Assembly: GCF_032854445.1 (NCBI RefSeq)
Contig: NC_088295.1
Location: 43,821,385-43,885,384, forward strand
DNA length: 64,000 nt
Origin: Liolophura sinensis
Lineage: Eukaryota; Mollusca; Polyplacophora; Chitonida; Chitonidae
Direction: 5' to 3'
Positions 11,905 to 59,565 of the stretch are shown one piece after another (position 1 is the first letter of the stretch; each line of letters begins with the position of its first letter). The notes beneath the pieces are model-generated. The model saw only the letters and a program-made list of their open reading frames with translations, was not told where the DNA came from and searched no databases. The translations under genes were made by a program, and so were the position numbers.

Positions 11905-12535
11905 CTTGGCATGGCATTCCAGTGAGGCAACATTTAACATGGTATTCCATGTTACCAAGTGTTCCTGTGAGACAGCACCCAGTGTGGTGTTTCAATGAGG
12001 CAGCACCCAGTGTCGTGTTCCAATGAGGCAGCACCCAGCTGGGCATTTCAGTGACGCAGCACCCAGCTTGGTGTTCCAATGAACAGCACCAAGTGTGGTG
12101 TCCCAATGAGGCAGCACCCAGTGTGGTGTTCCAGTGAGGCAGCACCCAGTGTGGTGTTCCAGTGAGGCAGCACCCAGTGTGGTGTTCCATTGAGGCAGCA
12201 TCCAGTGTGGTGTTCCAAGGAAGCAGCACCCAGTGAGATGTTTCAATGAAACAGCACCCATTGTGGTATTTCAATAAGGCAGCATCCAGGGAGGTGTACC
12301 AATGAGGCAGCACCCAGCTTGGTGCTCCAATGAAGCAGCATCCAGTGTGGTGTTCCAATGAGGCAGCATCCAGAGTGGTGTTCTAATGAGGCAGAACCCA
12401 GTGTGGCATTTCTGTGAGGCAGCACCTAGTGTGATGTTTCTGTGAGGCAACACCCAGTGTGGTGTTCCACTAAGGCAGCACTCATCTTGGTTTTCCAGTG
12501 AGGCACCACCCAGCTTAGTGTTCCAATGAGGTATG
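11905..12535. repeat. Minisatellite, 28-bp unit, about 22 copies
   Basis: Tandem copies of a unit built on 'gaggcagcacccagtgtggt', with clear 28-bp spacing (for example 12131 to 12159) and point variation between units. Because 28 is not a multiple of three, each unit moves to the next reading frame. The lack of stops makes all three minus-strand frames open across much of the array. The resulting translations (units like EHHTGCCL, TPHWVLPHW, NTTLGAASL) are one repeat read in three phases, not genes. Confidence 0.93.
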
Positions 12536-14123: not shown

Positions 14124-15516
14124 TTACATATAAAGGACCACTACACACACACAAGGGGCCACAATAAACACAAGGGACCACTATACACATAAGGGGCCAC
14201 TATACACGTAAGGGACCACTACACACATAAGGGACCACTACACACACATAAGGGACCACTACACACATAAGGGACCACTACACACACAAGGGACCACTAT
14301 ACACATAAGGGACTACCACACACACAAGGGACCACAACACACACAAAAGACCACTATACACATAAGGGACCACTATACACATAAGAGACCACTAAACACA
14401 TAAGAGACCATTACAACGCAAGGGACCACTACACACATAAGGGACCACTACACACACAATGGACCACTCTACACATAAGGGACTACCACACACACAAGGG
14501 ACCGCTACACACATAAGGGACCACTACACACATAAGGGACAACTACACACACAAGGACAACTACACACACAAGGGACCACTATACACATAAGGGACCACT
14601 ACACACACAAGGTACCACTCTACATGTAAGGAACCACCTTTGATAAGGGACCACTCTACACATAAGGGACCACTATACACAAAAGGTACGACTCTACACA
14701 TAAGGAACCACTATACACATAAGGGGCCACTATACACGTAAGGGACCACTACACACATAAGGGACCACTACACACATAAGGGACCACTACACACATAAGG
14801 GACTACCACACACACAAGGGACCACAACACACACAAAAGACCACTATACACATAAGGGACCACTATACACATAAGAGACCACTAAACACATAAGAGACCA
14901 TTACAACACAAGGGACCACTACACACATAAGGGACCACTACACACACAAGGGAAAACTCTACACATAAGGGGCCACTACTCATAAAAGGGAGCACTATAC
15001 ACATAAGGGACTACCACACACACAAGGGACCGCTACACACATAAGGGACCACTACACACATAAAGGACAACTACACACACAAGGGACAACTACGCACACA
15101 AGGGACAACTACACACACAAGGGACCACTATACACATAAGGGACCACTATACATATAAGGGACCACTCCACACACAAGGTACCACTCTACATGTAAGGAA
15201 CCACCTTTGATAAGGGACCACTCTACACATAAGGGACTACTATACACAAAAGGTACGACTCTACACATAAGGGACAACTATACACACAAGGTACCACACT
15301 ACACATAAGCGACCACTTTAGATATATGGGACCACTTTACACATAATAAACCACTTTACACATAAGGGACAACTTTACACTTAAGGAACCACTTTACACA
15401 TTATGGACCACTTCACACATAAGGGGTCACTTTACAAATAATGGACCACTTCACACAGAAGGGATCACTTTACACATAATGGACCACTTCACACATAAGG
15501 GACCACTTTACACATT
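14124..15516. repeat. Minisatellite, 19-bp unit, with about 0.5-kb higher-order duplication
   Basis: About 70 copies of a unit near 'aagggaccactacacacat'. Superimposed is a larger duplication: the marker 'gactaccacacacacaaggg' occurs at 14311 and 14801 (490 bp apart), and the 'ggtaccactctacatgtaag' block at 14611 and 15178 (567 bp apart), so a multi-unit segment was duplicated and then changed length. The right edge runs into the stop codon of PFN4 at 15515-15517. Units nearest the gene (15350-15516) differ in type, with 'ccacttcacacataa' alternating with 'ccactttacacataa'. Confidence 0.95.
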
Positions 15517-20083: not shown

Positions 20084-23000
20084 ATGTCATCTCTACTTTG
20101 TGTTCAGCAGCCAGGCGGCACAGTGCACGTCTATAACAGAGATGTCATCTCCCAGCTTAGTGACTGGACATCGCCCGTAAGTGTCGCTTACTCTTTTATA
20201 AGTATACTCGGAATCTAACACCCATGGTAATCAATTTCACGATTTTTGTCAGGTGCAAGTGCGGATACATGCAGAATGAAGAACGACATCCTGCACTTGA
20301 TTACCGTGCTTCACTTCAGTGAAGATAGACTTGCCTTCTCGTATTAAAGTAACAGGAGCTTCTAGCTATTCGTGTAGGCCTATGTAGCTCTATGGAAGTA
20401 TGTGTGAGTATAAATGTATGTGAACATAGCCCCATAGAACTAAACAGCACGATAGACCCACTGGAGAATTTTTAACTTCTGTGGGACTGGATAGGTGTAT
20501 GGATTGAGGATGTGGAAACCATCACATAAACCAAAGTAGCACTATAAATATATATTCTGCGTATATAGTAAGTTGTAATTTTTAACTTTCAGCTTCAAAC
20601 GCCAGCCTCATCTGCTTCCCAGTTAAAGTCCCGATCTGCTGGTTACACATCATCATCATCAGCGAGCAGACGTGATGGCTCACAGTCAAGATCAACCTTA
20701 ACGACAGAGAAGTCTGAAAAGCTCACAGACTGGCTCAATGCAAAGAGTGTCAAAGAATTACAGGTACATGATTACTACTGTGGCTTAAATGAAATTTCAA
20801 TTTTTTTTTGAATTTATGTTTTCATCTAAATTTTTAATAAATGATATTATCTTTGATGGTCATCCTGTGGGCATTTAATGTCTGTCCTATAAAGTCCAGT
20901 CTGTCTTCTGTCAAAATTAGTTCCAGTCCAGATAAAATGGAAGGGTACTTGTAAAGTACGTAAGAAAAAAGCTTGTTTTATTAATGTTTTGATGTAAGTC
21001 ATTACACATGCGGTGGTAGGCCTTTACTTCAGGTGTACTTGTATACATATTGCAGGATAGATCAGATCGGGAGACACGATCAACACGAAAACTCTTAGCG
21101 ACGCTGCTGCAAGGAGAGAAAACATTTGTGCAGGTAATTTCAGCAACAAACAACATGATACTATTTAGTGGACATTCTTTTATAATACCTGCAAGGAAGG
21201 GCAAGGCATTGTATGCAGGTATTCACACATTCACTTTCTTGTGTACCATACTTAATTTCATATGATTGATTGACTAATTGATTGTTGTTTAACGCTATGC
21301 TTAAGAGTGTTTCACTTATGTGACGGCAGTCAGGTTCTGGAAGAAACGCAGTGGCCAAAGTAAACCACCTACCTTCCTAGGTAATTGACAAACTTCTTGA
21401 CTTATAATTTCAAACAACTTCTAGTATATATTACATTGAGTTTGGAAGTTTCCTAGAAGGTGAGTTGTTCAGCTAATTTGTAGTTTGAATTTATTCATTT
21501 GATTGGTGTTTTAGGCCATGCGCAAGAACATCTCATTTATATGACGTCAGCCTGCACTATGGTGGGAGGAAACCAGACTGAAATCCACGACTGTATGCAG
21601 GTTGCTGACAGACCTTTCCATGTATGACTGGACAGGAAGCCACAGTGATCACATTGGCAACTCTGGATTTAAACTATAACATTTGCTCTACTTGTATAAT
21701 TTGCAGGATGCCACTGAATATTTGGGTAATAGATCAATTCTGGAGTTGCGCAGGAAGGAATTGTTACACAAGCGGTGGTCAGATGAAGTTTATGAGCCTC
21801 TCAGGAAGAAGATTAATGATGAAATGTCAAGTAGACACTGGCCAGATGTTGATAGGAGAAAGCGAGAGATGCACAAACAATATTTGGAATTCTCAAATAG
21901 AAAGGTAACTTCGTTATAGAAAAATGAACTGGTACACAAAATAAATTAAAGAATTAATGCTTCAGTGGAAGGACCATTGACTATTCACTCTGAAAATACT
22001 TGCTGTTTTTGATTTGACTTTTTCATTCAATAACATCTAGTCAATGAGGAGTCAATGAAAATTCTGGTCCATGATAAATAGTTTGTCCACAAAAGGTCAT
22101 TGCAAAGGCAGGAATAAACAACAGGCCAAACAGCTAAGGTCCAGATCGATTCTGGTGGGAAAAGTCTCCCCATTGTTTGGATTGTCAAGGGTGCTTTATG
22201 GGCCATATTGATGTTCAGAATAAATTCAAATCCATGTCATCATGTGATGTCACTGGCGACATATATTGTCAATATGGCCATAAAGCCCACCTTAGTAAAA
22301 AAATTTGGCTCACTGCATCTAATTCAGTGAACATGTAAGGTTTTTTTAAGGTGTTTTTACTGCTGCTTAAATCCATTTCTTTCCACCTTTTGCCAGAATT
22401 GTTTGGGAGAATGTTATAAGCTGGGTATTATGTCTTCTGTTTTCTCTTGTGAATGTCTTGAATGACTGACTGTTAGATTAATGCCATATTTCAGTTCATA
22501 ATGGATATCAAGTTGGATTAACTTGTTGCCTTGAAAAAATACAGATGGAACACAATTTTCTCATAACAGGGTCATGTGTTTTTGGATACCATTGATCCAG
22601 GGGAATATTACGCCATGGCATTGACTGGCCAGAGGCCTGCACCACTTAAGGTATACCTTAACTACATTTGTTTTGTGTCATCATTTGGTCATCATTAAAA
22701 GTCACCAAAAGTAACATTTCAAAGTTACAGTAAATCACCTACATGTATAATTTCAAATGAATTTTCCACTAATTAATCACCTCCCTCCTCCATCAACCTA
22801 ATGTGAATTAGGTCATCATTTGTAGTGAAATTTCATGTGATTAATGGTAAATCTCATGAAGCTTTAGGTTGATTTTCAGCAACGACATTCTATACAATGG
22901 TTTGACTCAAGCCAGGGGTAGGTTGACCTGCAATTTAAAAAAAACAGCCTATGATGGGATGCTCTCAGTTGTTTCCACATGCTACCAGTTGCCAATTGTT

Positions 23001-24467
23001 TCCACATGCTACCAGTTGCCAGTTGTTTCCACATGCTACCAGTTGCCAGTTGTTTCCACATGCTACCAGTTGCCAGTTGTTTCCACATGCTACCAGTTGC
23101 CAGTTGTTTCCACATGCTACCAGTTGCCAGTTGTTTCCACATGCTACCAGTTGCCAGTTGTTTCCACATGCTACCAGTTGCCGGTTGTTTCCACATGCTA
23201 CCAGTTCCCAGTTGTTTCCACATGCTACCAGTTCCCAGTTGTTTCCACATGCTACCAGTCACCAAAAATCTGGTTGCTCAAGATGCAAGGTCGATCTACG
23301 CTAAGGTTTATTACTACTCCTTTGTTACATTCTGTAGCAGTCTTCATTTGACTATTGACAAATGATAAGTTGACACTACAGATCACCAAGTGAGAAGGGT
23401 AAAAATCTAGGCAGGATGAGTGTCCGAGATTTTCATTATTCCCAGCTCCTAACATTTTACTTATTTGGTCTGCACACAGATAGCTACAGCCAAACTGAGA
23501 GACCCGTTACTGTCACAAGGGAGTCAACGTAACGATGAAGATCGCATGATGTTACGATGTCTGACAGGCAACCACTACACAGACAGAGACATTGAACAGA
23601 TCAAGCAGCCGCTGTTACCCTTAGTGCCCCTGGGGCGTCACGGCACAGAGTGCAGCACCTGGCTCTCTATGCCACTTCACAATATCGAGAGTACATGTCG
23701 ACAAGCCAGCAGGTCAGACATCTTTCATAACAGCCTTACTGTTCATTGCATGTCCATTGTAGCTATAGAAACCATTTTTGCAGTTTTAGGAAAATTATCT
23801 ATTGTGTTTAATTTCGGGTTAACATGTGATTTTTTGTTTATACAGAACCAGGAGTTTCCTTCAGAAACATGCAGAAAATATATTTCTATTCAGTTAAGAG
23901 TCAATTAAGTAGTGTTTCTGTTCCCCTTATAAAGGAAAATTTAGCAGATATTTTAACAAGAATATCCAATTTCCAGTGGCAGCATGTGTGTTTCAAATAA
24001 AAACCTGTCTTTCCATTTTCAGAGGCCATTTTAGAGTTGATGGAAAGTTACATTCTTTTGCATTTGGCGTGTCATGCATGTATTTGTGTTAAATAAGAAC
24101 ATGTAGAACCATACTGCAGATCTTACAGGAAAGCCTTTCTCTTCACAACTAGAACCTAATTCATCCTTAAGACAAAAAACGGTATGATTGATTATTTCCT
24201 ACTGTGCTTCCCACTGATGTTAACCCAGTTCACTTCTTACTTATTGTCTTCAGGAGACGGATGGTTGGCAGTACAAGGCATCAGATGGATTTTGGAACCT
24301 GGGCTAAAGCACCCTTTGATTCTGCTGTGGTTGATGAAGAAATGCAAGTTCAAAGACGGCGTACATTTCCAGAGTCGTCCATCTTTGGGAAGCCCCCACC
24401 ACATGTACATCCTACCCACTCCCAGTCACACTTAGTGGATGTTGCAACCAGCACTTCAGATATGTAA
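20084..24467 (+). CDS. FAM228: FAM228-family protein
   Basis: Seven coding exons: 20084-20176, 20593-20763, 21056-21133, 21707-21904, 22570-22650, 23480-23712 and 24254-24467, giving 355 residues with every junction GT/AG and in phase. The family has no established biochemical function. The best landmark is LRRKELLHKRWSDEV in exon 4, which matches the RRKELLHKRW block of human FAM228A/B. It is followed by basic, helical sequence (PLRKKINDEM, RRKREMHKQYLEF) and a proline-containing GHVFLDTIDPGEYY in exon 5. Exon 2 is Ser/Arg-rich and probably disordered. Exon 6 ends with two spare bases, which joins correctly to the long frame of exon 7 (RMVGSTRHQMDFGTW, then RRRTFPESSIFG). Poly(A) signals AATAAA at 24592-24597 and 24834-24839. 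In human, PFN4 and FAM228A/B are also neighbours, which supports both calls. Intron 5 holds a 27-bp minisatellite. The start is the first ATG with a good exon behind it; its -3 base is C. Confidence 0.87.
21495..21640 (-). mobile_element. Degenerate SINE copy in FAM228 intron 3
   Basis: Matches the window's SINE body ('catttgattggtgtttta', then 'actatggtgggaggaaacca', then 'caggttgctgacagacc') with many substitutions. Another still older relative may lie at 21265-21400. Confidence 0.7.
22189..22292. repeat. Short foldback (inverted repeat)
   Basis: Arms 22189-22211 ('gctttatgggccatattga') and 22269-22292 ('tcaatatggccataaagc') are reverse complements with one or two differences, separated by about 57 bases. 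It sits in FAM228 intron 4 and may be a small MITE remnant. Confidence 0.7.
22972..23262. repeat. Minisatellite, 27-bp unit, about 11 copies
   Basis: Near-identical tandem copies of a unit starting 'gttgtttccacatgctacca', spaced exactly 27 bp (for example 22981 to 23008). Because 27 is a multiple of three, several frames stay open on both strands and repeat a nine-residue unit (VVSTCYQLP, SCFHMLPVA and so on). It lies in FAM228 intron 5, between the donor at 22651 and the acceptor at 23478, so these frames are not expected to be coding. Low divergence suggests recent expansion and likely length polymorphism. Confidence 0.95.
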
Positions 24468-26084
24468 CTCTCTGGGTTTTGTTTGTAGTTACGATTTGTG
24501 CTCTTGTATCATAGCTCATTCTCACAGTTTACTGTGTATTGATTGTGGGAAAACGTATGTAATACATGTAGCTACGTGTGATCTGCTGAAAAATAAATGA
24601 AAGATTTGCATGACTCATAAATTTACTAAGATGGTTTTCTTGTCATATTGGGTATTTTTGTACAGAATATGAAGTCAGTTTATATACATTTTCTTTTTAA
24701 TATTTTGCTTTGTGTAGTATATTTTGTTACATGTGACAGTGTTTTTATATCATATATATGCTTATATTATGTAACAGTATTTATGGAGAAATATTACCCC
24801 TGTGAGATCTACATGTACTTTGCATAAAAGTTGAATAAAGTTTATGTTTACAGAAGTATTCATTTTAGTGTTGTTGCATAATCTGCATCATGCCTTATTC
24901 TGGCTTCAAAGAACTATTTTCCAATCAACAACTTTTAGTTCAAGCTACATTATATGTAAATACATACATGTATAATAAGAAGTTTTTTCTGAGACCAACA
25001 TATCTCAACAGAACAATATAATCAGCTATCTGTACAAATCCTTTTTATTCTGTCACAATCTTCATAACAGAAGAGTACACCTTTACAGAGTTACAAAATA
25101 TCTGTTTATTCAGCTTACAAAAAACAACAAAGATCTGCCCTCCATTGAAGTTGAGGGCAGATCTCAGTGAAGCAAAGTAGGTATTGGGTTATGTTTACCT
25201 TCCCCCAGCCATAACCCTGGAGTCTGTTGTATAAATGAAATGTTCGAGACCTGTGTCAAACCCCAAACGAAATGGAAGTTCCGGTCATCAAACTGATTGC
25301 AAAACATTATCAACTGAGGTCTATAACAACCTTGTCTCAGGATGCAATGAGCAATTCTCCTGGGCAAAACTTGGGAGAAAGTTGTTCATGTTGGAAACTC
25401 TGTATAAGTACCCCAATTTAGGCCACACATTCAGGCCATACAGTCTGTTTCTCACACCATAATAATTTTTTTTTCAAACTCAATGTATTGGACATTTACT
25501 ATGGAATTATTGCACATCACAACAAAGCACATGCTTTGATATGTCCAAAACAGGAATATTTCCGAATATTGTATTCAAACAAAAACAAGGAGAGTAATGA
25601 ATAAAATGTCATGACTGGACGAATGTGACTTCTGCTCAGGAATGGTCATTTGTCACTTTCCTTGGCCAGAGCTTACCTTCGCATAGCTTCCTATATAAAT
25701 TTTAACAATTTCTCTTTTGAATACAATTGGGAACTTTTCCAAAATACAGTACAATAATTCAGGTCCCAGCTGTGCAGTCTTTTGTTCATTCCTGCCCTTC
25801 TTTGTATGTACATTCTCAAATTATCATATAAATTACACTATGATACAGGCCAAACTTCTGCATTTCAGTCTAACTGTACACATACTTACAAAAATCAAGA
25901 AGTCTTCAAAACATTATAATATTATGATGTTGACCAAGCATCACTCCCACCATAGCATGGGAACTGGCCAAAATCTCACCATATTTAGCACAAACTCCTA
26001 TCTCCATGATTCCACTCTATTTTCATTCGCGATGCCAATTCATTTTCATATCAAGCTCTGTAGTGATTCTACCCTTTTTTCACA
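24468..26084. other. Convergent 3' ends of FAM228 and FIG4
   Basis: The left part is FAM228 3' UTR, probably ending after AATAAA at 24834-24839. For FIG4 on the other strand, AATAAA read on - occurs at 25110-25105 and 25049-25044. If either is used, FIG4 would have a 3' UTR of about 2 kb that includes the whole 81-bp array. No other gene recognised. The open frame starting at 25717 is explained by that array. Confidence 0.5.
25131..25164. repeat. Perfect 12-bp inverted repeat with 10-base loop
   Basis: agatctgccctc at 25131-25142 and its exact reverse complement gagggcagatct at 25153-25164 flank the loop cattgaagtt. It lies just upstream (on the minus strand) of candidate FIG4 poly(A) signals at 25105-25110, so it could form a stem-loop in the 3' UTR of a FIG4 transcript. 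Function is unknown. Confidence 0.75.
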
Positions 26085-27151
26085 TGTACATCTACTTGAT
26101 GCTTACACGCTGTCTGTACAACATCATATCCTGGTCTGTGGGAGGTGTACAGTCTGTGATTACCCTATATTCACATGTACTTGCTGCAGACATACTGCCT
26201 GTACATCATATCCTGGTCTGTGGAAGGTGTACAGTCTAATTACACTATATTCACATGTACTTGCTGCAGACAAACTGCCTGTACATCATATCCTGGTCTG
26301 TGGGAGGTGTACAGTCTGTGATTACCCTATATTCACATGTACTTGCTGCAGACATACTGCCTGTACATCATATCCTGGTCTGTGGAAGGTGTACAGTCTA
26401 ATTACACTATATTCACATGTACTTGCTGCAGACATACTGCCTGTACAACATCATATCCTGGTCTGTGGGAGGTGTACAGTCTGTGATTACCCTATATTCA
26501 CATGTACTTGCTGCAGACATACTGCCTGTACATCATATCCTGGTCTGTGGAAGGTGTACAGTCTAATTACACTATATTCACATGTACTTGATGCAGACAT
26601 ACTGCCTGTACAACATCATATCCTGGTCTGTGGGAGGTGTACAGTCTGTGATTACCCTATATTCACATGTACATGCTGCAGACATGCTGCCTATACAACA
26701 TCATATCCTGGGGTGTGGGAGGTGTACAGTCTGTGATTACCCTATATTCACTTGTACATGCTGGTTGTACAACATCATATCCTGGCCTGTGGCAGGTGTA
26801 CAGTCTGTGATTACCCTATATTCAAAAGTACTTGCTGCTGACATACTGTCTGTGCATCATATCCTGGCCTGTGGAAGGTGTACAGTCTAATTACACTATA
26901 TTCACATGTACTTGCTGCAGACATACTGCCTGTACAACATCATATCCTGGTCTGTGGGAGGTATATACTCTGTGATTACCCTATATTCACATGTACTTGC
27001 TGCAGACATACTGCATGTACATCATATCCTGGTCTGTGGAAGGTGTACAGTCTAATTACACTATATTCAAATGTACTTGCTGCTGACATACTGTCTGTAC
27101 ATCATCACATCCTAGTCTGTGGGAGGTGTACAGTCTGTGATTACCCTATAT
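26085..27151. repeat. 81-bp tandem array made of copies of the FIG4 3' coding end
   Basis: Thirteen units of 80-86 bp, recognisable by the 'gtacagtct' marker or its variant at about 26147, 26229, 26309, 26391, 26475, 26556, 26639, 26725, 26797, 26879, 26962, 27046 and 27128. Two subtypes largely alternate: A has 'ctgtgattaccctata', B has 'ctaattacactata'. Read on the minus strand, each unit contains the last codons of FIG4 and its TGA. Long-form A units give PPTDQDMM, YRQYVCSKYM then stop, aligned without gaps to the genuine end [19 protein letters not shown]. The remaining bases of each unit correspond to the sequence just after the FIG4 stop. The array is contiguous with the real exon at 27152. 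Confidence 0.93.
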
Positions 27152-29013
27152 TCACTTGTACTTGCTGCTGACATACTGTCTGTACATCTTCATATCTTGG
27201 TCCGTGGGTGGGCCGGGTCCATATTTCCCCCGTAAGATGTATGCGTTGTAGATGTCCTTGGACTGCCGGCTCACTGGTGGAGGCTCAACACAGTACGAGC
27301 TGTCCAGCTTGAAAGCGCTGATAGGGTACCTGGTGAAAAAAAATAATATATCCTCAATGGACATTTTTTAATATTTATTGATCTGTTTGAGGTTTATGCA
27401 ATGTTAAAGAATATTTCACTTACACTGCAGCTCTAGCTGTACTGTATTATATTTATCAGTGGAGAAAATGATTCGTTTATTTATCTGAATGGTGTTTTAC
27501 ACCATACTGAGAATATTTCACTTATATGACAAGGGCCAGCATTATGGTGGGAGGAAACCAGGCAGAGCCCCGATGAAACCCATGACAATTTGCAGGTTGA
27601 GGAAATAATTCAGTTCAGGCACATATACATATCTGTACAATATATTCTCAAGGTGTGAGGTATACATTTTCATGTTTACAGATTAGATGATATTTTGATG
27701 TGCTCAAGTCTCATCATATTCTCATTTTATTTCTTTATTTGATTCTTGTTTTACGCCGTACTCAAGAATATTTTGTTTATATGGCGACGAAAAAAAATAA
27801 TATATCCTCAATGGACATTTTTTAATATTTATTGATCTGTTTGAGGTTTATGCAATGTTAAAGAATATTTCACTTACACTGCAGCTCTAGCTGTACTGTA
27901 TTATATTTATCAGTGGAGAAAATGATTCGTTTATTTATCTGAATGGTGTTTTACACCATACTGAGAATATTTCACTTATATGACAAGGGCCAGCATTATG
28001 GTGGGAGGAAACCAGGCAGAGCCCCGATGAAACCCATGACAATTTGCAGGTTGAGGAAATAATTCAGTTCAGGCACATATACATATCTGTACAATATATT
28101 CTCAAGGTGTGAGGTATACATTTTCATGTTTACAGATTAGATGATATTTTGATGTGCTCAAGTCTCATCATATTCTCATTTTATTTCTTTATTTGATTCT
28201 TGTTTTACGCCGTACTCAAGAATATTTTGTTTATATGGCGACGACCAGCATTATGGTGGGAGGAAACCGAGCAGAGCCCGGGGGAAAACCCATGACCATC
28301 CACAGGTTGCTGGCAGTCCTTCCCATATATGGCAAGAGAGAAAGCCAGCATGAGCTGGACTTTACAGCGACTGCATTGGTGAGAGGCTCCTGGGTCATTA
28401 CGCCGCACTAGCGCGCTAACCAAATGAGCTACGGAGGCCCTGTTCTCATTTTAAACCATCATACTGTACACACATGTAGTCAGTTAAATGTCAAATCACA
28501 TAAGCTACCATATGTTGTAACAGTATTTCCACTTTATTCCCACATCTGGCTCAAATCAAACAGGTAAACTAAAGTCATAAATGTCAAGATATCACACTGA
28601 CATCCTTTTGATCTCATTTTCATCCCTAGGAGATAAAAGTCTGACAGTGCACTGTCAGGGGGAGATTTCTACATTTACTGTTAAGGATAGACAACTTCAA
28701 AACACAAAGTTGATATTTTATGGGTTAATACAGTCCTTTAGTCTATGCCATGCAGATTCACTTACAGCTCAATCCCTCTTTTACTTGGTTCAGGTTCTCT
28801 CTTTGATGCCTCTTCAAATTCAACATACCTGTATGAATATAACATGCAACTGCTTACAAAGTGAAAGCAGTTTTATTTCTGAGCAACTTTATTACATGTA
28901 TATGTATCTCAATTTTCTGTAATGCTGACAATTTCAATACTTTTTTAATAATTAGCTTTGTGGATACATAATTTTACATGTACAATATATATAATATATA
29001 TAATATATGTATA

Positions 29014-58725: not shown

Positions 58726-58845
58726 GGCAAAATTCTTGAAAAGCTGAAGAGATGAGTTGCTTTAAAACAAACTATCGCTGTGCTTTATGGGCTCAGGTTG
58801 TGTCCAGACATATCTTCAAACGACGGCAGCAGGAAAAATAATTCA

Positions 58846-59007
58846 GGGAATGAGACCAAGAAGCCACATGTAGGCATGAAGGCAAAGCTGTGCTTCATGT
58901 GTGACTCAATTACCAAAACCTCAGCAGGGAATGAGACCAAGAAGGCACATGTAGGCATGAAGGCAATTCTGTGCTTCATGTGTGACTCAATTACCAAAAC
59001 CTCAGCA
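58846..59007. repeat. 81-bp tandem duplication, two copies
   Basis: Copy 1 58846-58926 and copy 2 58927-59007 start 'gggaatgagaccaagaag' and differ at only a few positions. Both strands stay open through them: + gives two 27-residue units containing HVGMKA and LCFMCDSITKTSA, - gives VIESHMKH units. No start, splice or family context supports coding. Confidence 0.9.
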
Positions 59008-59565
59008 GTACCCCGGGCACTACGGTTTCCTCCACCCACAAACTTGGCTGCAGCCATATAATAATGGAAAAACGAGTTAATCAATCAATAAAGCAAATAA
59101 TCAGTCACACGAGACTTCAGGGTCGTGCTTCATATCCGTCAGTGTGTACATACCATACTTCTGCGTATTTGTTTTAGTCTGATGTCGCGTTGAACATCCT
59201 TCCCTTTCTTAACAGAGATTGTCTTGCATACATTGTAGTGGAGTTTAAACTGTTGACTTGCAGATCACACTATATAATAGTTAAGATTATTTTAAACCAA
59301 GGCAGATTTGTGGAAGTGTTTTCCAAGTTCTTTTACATTTAAAAAATCCGAGTCTGGAATAGTATTCTAGTGAAGATAAATCTATCCTACCGCCTTAGAC
59401 ATTTCATTGATAAGTAATTGAGAACAGAATAGAAAGATTGTTTGAGTTTTTTTTTATTTACTTATTTTTATTATTCTTATAACTGATGTAATAAGTGGGC
59501 CTTCCATTGTACTTAATATAAATTTCAAAATATCCAACATATATTTAAGAACTCTGGTTTCATCT
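59008..59565. other. Convergent 3' flank of SLC5
   Basis: AT-rich, no gene recognised. AATAAA read on - at 59458-59453 is a candidate poly(A) signal for the SLC5 gene. Confidence 0.5.

Follow-up and report, generated by a model that had tools for sequence, protein, structure and literature searches.

The DNA that follows the stop codon of FIG4 in Liolophura sinensis is, with high probability, a minisatellite that has arisen in place by local copying of the end of the gene itself. FIG4 lies on the minus strand of the window (the whole stretch of 64 kb that was analysed), and 13 tandem units were found directly 3' of its stop, the last one near 26070, all 13 oriented as FIG4 and with no break between the gene stop and the array. 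Each unit contains up to 57 nt that stem from the end of the coding sequence, with the stop, and 26 or 28 nt of UTR. A previous sequence-only reading had announced about 13 stop-region units after FIG4, a breakpoint inside the last exon and a local origin from the gene end. The 13 units indeed combine the coding end and its stop with the start of the UTR, the breakpoint is supported at the P-T-D-Q codons, and local origin is supported by the match of the terminal codons to a FIG4 protein chain and by a window that holds no other copy. The span given for the array, 26085..27329, had to be revised, with the array proper at about 27123-26070 and 27329 being the start of the intact exon.

Three stretches of the minus strand match the FIG4 chain 7k1w_F of the Protein Data Bank, whose record title is 'Fig4 Sac homology model' and which we take to be human FIG4. 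The last coding exon without the stop occupies 27155..27329 and is preceded by a probable acceptor, ACCAG, at 27334-27330, and it is from this AG, together with the reading frame, that we infer the exon start. Positions 27155-27328 translate into 58 residues that begin with YPISAF and end with SKYK, and in a phmmer search residues 2-57 of this query aligned to residues 862-917 of the 918 of the chain (E = 9e-07). The two other stretches match the chain with E values of 9.5e-14 and 4.6e-27, and one further FIG4 stretch matches the SacI homology domain of Pfam with E 3.1e-05 and 23.9 bits, under the curated cut-off of 27; Pfam returned zero matches for the last exon and for both other stretches that match the chain. 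The FIG4 coding sequence ends at a TGA at 27154-27152, and the gene end is still at its original stop. With an alignment of the last exon to 7k1w_F that reaches residue 917 of 918, the terminal codons predate the array, which makes the array the copy and the older gene end its source. By unit alignment, the source consists of the final 57 coding nt, TGA included (27152..27208, minus strand), and of the first 28 nt 3' of the stop (27124..27151, minus strand), which are identical at 28/28 positions to the UTR part of six of the 13 units.

The resemblance between units and exon is well above chance. All 13 units reached local scores of 54-79 against the exon end, compared with 41 for the best of 2000 shuffles, so that an identity no higher than chance, named by the sequence-only reading as the outcome that would speak against it, was not what we observed; the shuffles were intended to preserve dinucleotides, with recourse to plain shuffling if that failed, and the observed scores were taken from each unit joined to the next and the null from single units, which slightly favors the observed values, yet the margin is wide. 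Elsewhere in the window the best local score was 24 on either strand. An nhmmer profile recovered the gene segment and the 13 units with a worst E of 2.5e-14, a result that is informative only for unit U13 and for the absence of other copies, as the profile had been built from the gene segment and the 12 other units. No further copies were detected in the 64-kb window by 14-mers or by the profile, whose next best hit had an E of 0.67. The alignments thus indicate that the array derives from the FIG4 coding end.

The array (26070..27123, minus strand) consists of diverged copies whose spacing is not that of the plain 81-bp unit previously proposed. From stop copy to stop copy the distances are 85, 80, 85, 80, 74, 85, 85, 80, 85, 80, 82, 80 and 91 bp, a mostly regular alternation of 80 and 85 bp that makes a 165-bp dimer across the greater part of the array, and Tandem Repeats Finder (TRF) returned periods of 85, 165 and 489, with 82 for one part. 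Minisatellites are made of head-to-tail units of ~10-100 bp in arrays of ~0.5-30 kb, and with 13 units spaced 74-91 bp over ~1.1 kb the array is of minisatellite, or variable-number tandem repeat (VNTR), size. When units were cut at the exon-side junction (U13 by hand), six of the 13 aligned without gaps to the 57 coding columns of the gene, with identities of 45/57 to 50/57; the earlier description of gap-free long-form units holds for these six, and among the others six have lost the same in-frame 3 nt (identity 46/54 to 48/54) and one, U05, lacks 11 nt of the coding part (37/46). Over the UTR part, identity to the gene is 28/28 in six units, 24/26 in five, 25/28 in U02 and 12/27 in U13. The most regular core lies at 26305..26634 (minus strand), where U07 to U10 form two near-identical 165-bp dimers, U08 being equal to U10 and U07 98% identical to U09 in the identity matrix. 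At the gene-distal end, U13 (26070..26142, minus strand) is the most diverged unit, recognized with an nhmmer score of 49.1 (E 2.5e-14) by the profile without U13; cut as 26142-26059, it matches the gene in 45/57 coding columns. A possible remnant of an extra unit, insecure and outside the 13, occurs in the expected register at 26033..26061 (minus strand): in ungapped comparison shuffles were as good in 17/300 and 13/300 cases, which is borderline, and in gapped comparison the remnant had no significance (157/500 and 71/500).

The array appears to have changed separately from the gene, as had been proposed, through substitutions that are common to most units, not to all. Every one of the 13 units departs from the gene at columns 6 and 12, and at column 20 so do all seven that have a base there; column 53 is gene-like in U05 only. 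At columns 30 and 40 the gene-like bases are kept in U01, U04 and U13, both array edges included, with the derived G at column 30 in nine units and, at column 40, a derived state common to nine units other than these three. The announced change of VSSK to VCSK is seen as a Cys in place of the first Ser in nine of the 13 units, Ser being kept in three and the codon missing in one, and exact V-C-S-K occurs in seven. Likewise, for the change of KYK to KYM, the last Lys codon, AAG, is altered in 12 of the 13 units and is ATG in 10.

In U01-U04 and in U07-U10, units of long coding part and short UTR form take turns with units of short coding part and long UTR form, the former coming first; U12 fits this alternation and U05, U06, U11 and U13 do not. 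Units are more alike at lags 2, 4 and 6 (identity 0.898, 0.882 and 0.899) than at lags 1, 3 and 5 (0.860, 0.853 and 0.845), and with U13 left out a difference between lag 2 and lag 1 as large as that observed was reached in 150 of 5000 permutations. Two sets of units are identical, U03 with U09 and U08 with U10 and U12, a sign that the dimer was amplified. Of the unit alignment and unit tree that had been suggested as a check, the alignment matched all 13 units to the exon end, and the maximum-likelihood tree of 14 rows (11 of them different) had none of its eight inner branches well supported; therefore, we make no claim on the order of unit birth or on the finer history.

In the reading that we favor, a segment of ~85 bp, which starts at the P-T-D-Q codons, crosses the stop and ends in the 3' UTR, was probably tandemly duplicated once or a few times just downstream of FIG4. 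The copies, free from selection, would then have gained the 3-nt coding deletion, a 2-nt UTR deletion and the changes of Ser to Cys and Lys to Met, and a long-short pair would subsequently have been amplified as the 165-bp dimer via unequal exchange or slippage. By eye, CCCAC is common to the unit junction and the exon, the original UTR partner not being recoverable. The most likely location of the array is within the FIG4 3' UTR or immediately beyond it, and the array is probably neutral; effects on the FIG4 mRNA or its terminal codons, as suggested by the sequence-only reading, would be hypothetical.

The neighboring sequence holds other repeats. Directly upstream of the last exon, and separate from the array, a perfect 454-bp tandem duplication (27335..28244, minus strand) occupies the intron and ends at the pyrimidine tract before the exon; its copies are identical at 454/454 positions and at 2 further bases (TRF 100%), and it is either very recent or an assembly error. 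Further away, a 27-bp repeat of about eleven copies with 98% matches (22966-23259) is free of stops in five of its six frames, and an 81-bp repeat of two copies (96%) at 58844-59008 has one open frame per strand and could be a duplicated exon piece. Two long minisatellites are present at 11959-12531 (28 bp, ~20 copies) and 14126-15515 (19 bp, ~73 copies). The presence of several other tandem arrays in the window suggests that such arrays may be frequent in the genome. Open frames of the plus strand at 20572, 21680, 23453 and 24192 had no Pfam match over the cut-off.

We considered whether copying has been strictly one-way. Through gene conversion or unequal crossing-over, the array may instead keep exchanging with the stop region and renewing the start of the 3' UTR, with purifying selection holding the terminal codons. 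Against the array majority the gene differs in 7/57 coding columns and in 0/28 UTR columns (column 22 has no single array state, some units having a gap and others T), a contrast that could reflect exchange with the gene, and U01, the unit nearest the gene, has gene-like states at columns 22, 30 and 40. The contrast is, however, not significant (Fisher p = 0.09), a young array plus chance explains it equally well, and gene-like states are present at the far end too, in U13, so that we regard such exchange as unlikely. That the array is a live reservoir repeatedly exchanging with the FIG4 stop region seems to us decidedly improbable; if it were, the gene-derived repeat could supply FIG4 alleles with changed terminal codons or other mRNA ends. 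We give still less credit to the idea that the array multiplies 3'-end processing signals, its length setting the end of the FIG4 mRNA. AATATA, a weak variant of the poly(A) signal, accompanies the stop of the gene and of 12 of the 13 units, and the first minus-strand AATAAA after the stop, at 25110, is ~2 kb off. Nevertheless, the 12 motifs are inherited from one and are not independent, variant hexamers occur past the array and closer than AATAAA (AATGAA at 26044, AATAGA at 26021, AATACA at 25575 and AGTAAA at 25500), and such motifs would be expected in DNA as rich in A+T as the window (G+C 37.5%).

A dispersed satellite or mobile element of 80/85 bp as the source, inserted at FIG4 and supplying the terminal codons that the gene now has, is hardly credible, given that 7k1w_F has the same terminal segment and that the 64-kb window contains no other copy. 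It is equally hard to believe that the array is an assembly artefact: the perfect 454-bp duplication directly upstream is something that could result from a mis-joined assembly, but the substitutions and small deletions that distinguish the units are not created by mis-assembling one sequence; at most, the number of copies in the near-identical core could be in error. An antisense open frame runs through part of the array at 25699-26736 on the plus strand, with 345 aa from stop to stop, and its single Pfam match was far under the cut-off (E 0.059). In the concatenated units the longest stop-free stretch on either strand is 225 codons, a length reached in 70 of 2000 column permutations that keep the repeat structure, which is nominally unusual; one open frame repeats itself because the dimer of 165 nt is 3 x 55 nt. 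We read this antisense frame as probably not a gene. By eye, CCCACAG or a similar string stands at every unit junction, and splicing into the units was considered.

In conclusion, local copying of the FIG4 end, the reading that we favor, yields a legible tandem repeat, whose source can still be seen at its site and has a conserved counterpart in a distantly related protein. The early steps of repeat birth, namely the breakpoint, the first divergence and the switch to amplification of a dimer, can thereby be studied at one locus, and whether an array can exchange with an adjoining functional exon could be put to a natural test there. SLC6A3 too harbors a tandem repeat, a variable-number one that lies in the 3' UTR in its human version. 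The SLC6A3 repeat, described in dog with 38 bp (PMC3871558), resembles the FIG4 array in being a tandem repeat within a gene; the FIG4 unit can be traced to the end of the coding sequence of the gene that it adjoins, and it has no known phenotype. On the W chromosome of Eremias velox, amplified fragments of the protein-coding gene ATF7IP2 are part of a repeat (PMC8160951); there the repeat is composite and runs along the chromosome, whereas at FIG4 a small array sits beside its parent gene.

How the FIG4 array should be named depends partly on wording. Satellite DNA, as PMC12692304 describes it, is traditionally abundant, forms long arrays and is classically found in heterochromatin, while the array described here measures ~1.1 kb and has no second copy within 64 kb. 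The 'satellite birth' of the sequence-only reading is a strong term for ~1.1 kb at one known place, and minisatellite fits better; the broad definition given in the same paper, any non-coding tandem array, localized or scattered, does admit it, the array being judged non-coding from its stops. In the review PMC5615363, the seeds named for satellites are ribosomal spacers and transposable elements. Among the open-licence literature matches listed, no report of a tandem repeat spanning the FIG4 stop codon was present. The route proposed here would fit the model of Haber and Louis, in which, as PMC6947457 outlines it, short flanking repeats give rise to a minisatellite through slippage or unequal exchange between them. 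Short flanking repeats of this type are not demonstrable at FIG4, where the undisplaced UTR is not recoverable. Like the FIG4 array, the minisatellites of that outline are short tandem copies of adjoining unique sequence with diverged units, a higher-order dimer and an expansion that slippage or unequal exchange can explain; unlike them, the FIG4 unit crosses a stop codon and is part coding exon and part 3' UTR. A unit that spans the stop codon, with its source still present, is a tidy case of a known kind.
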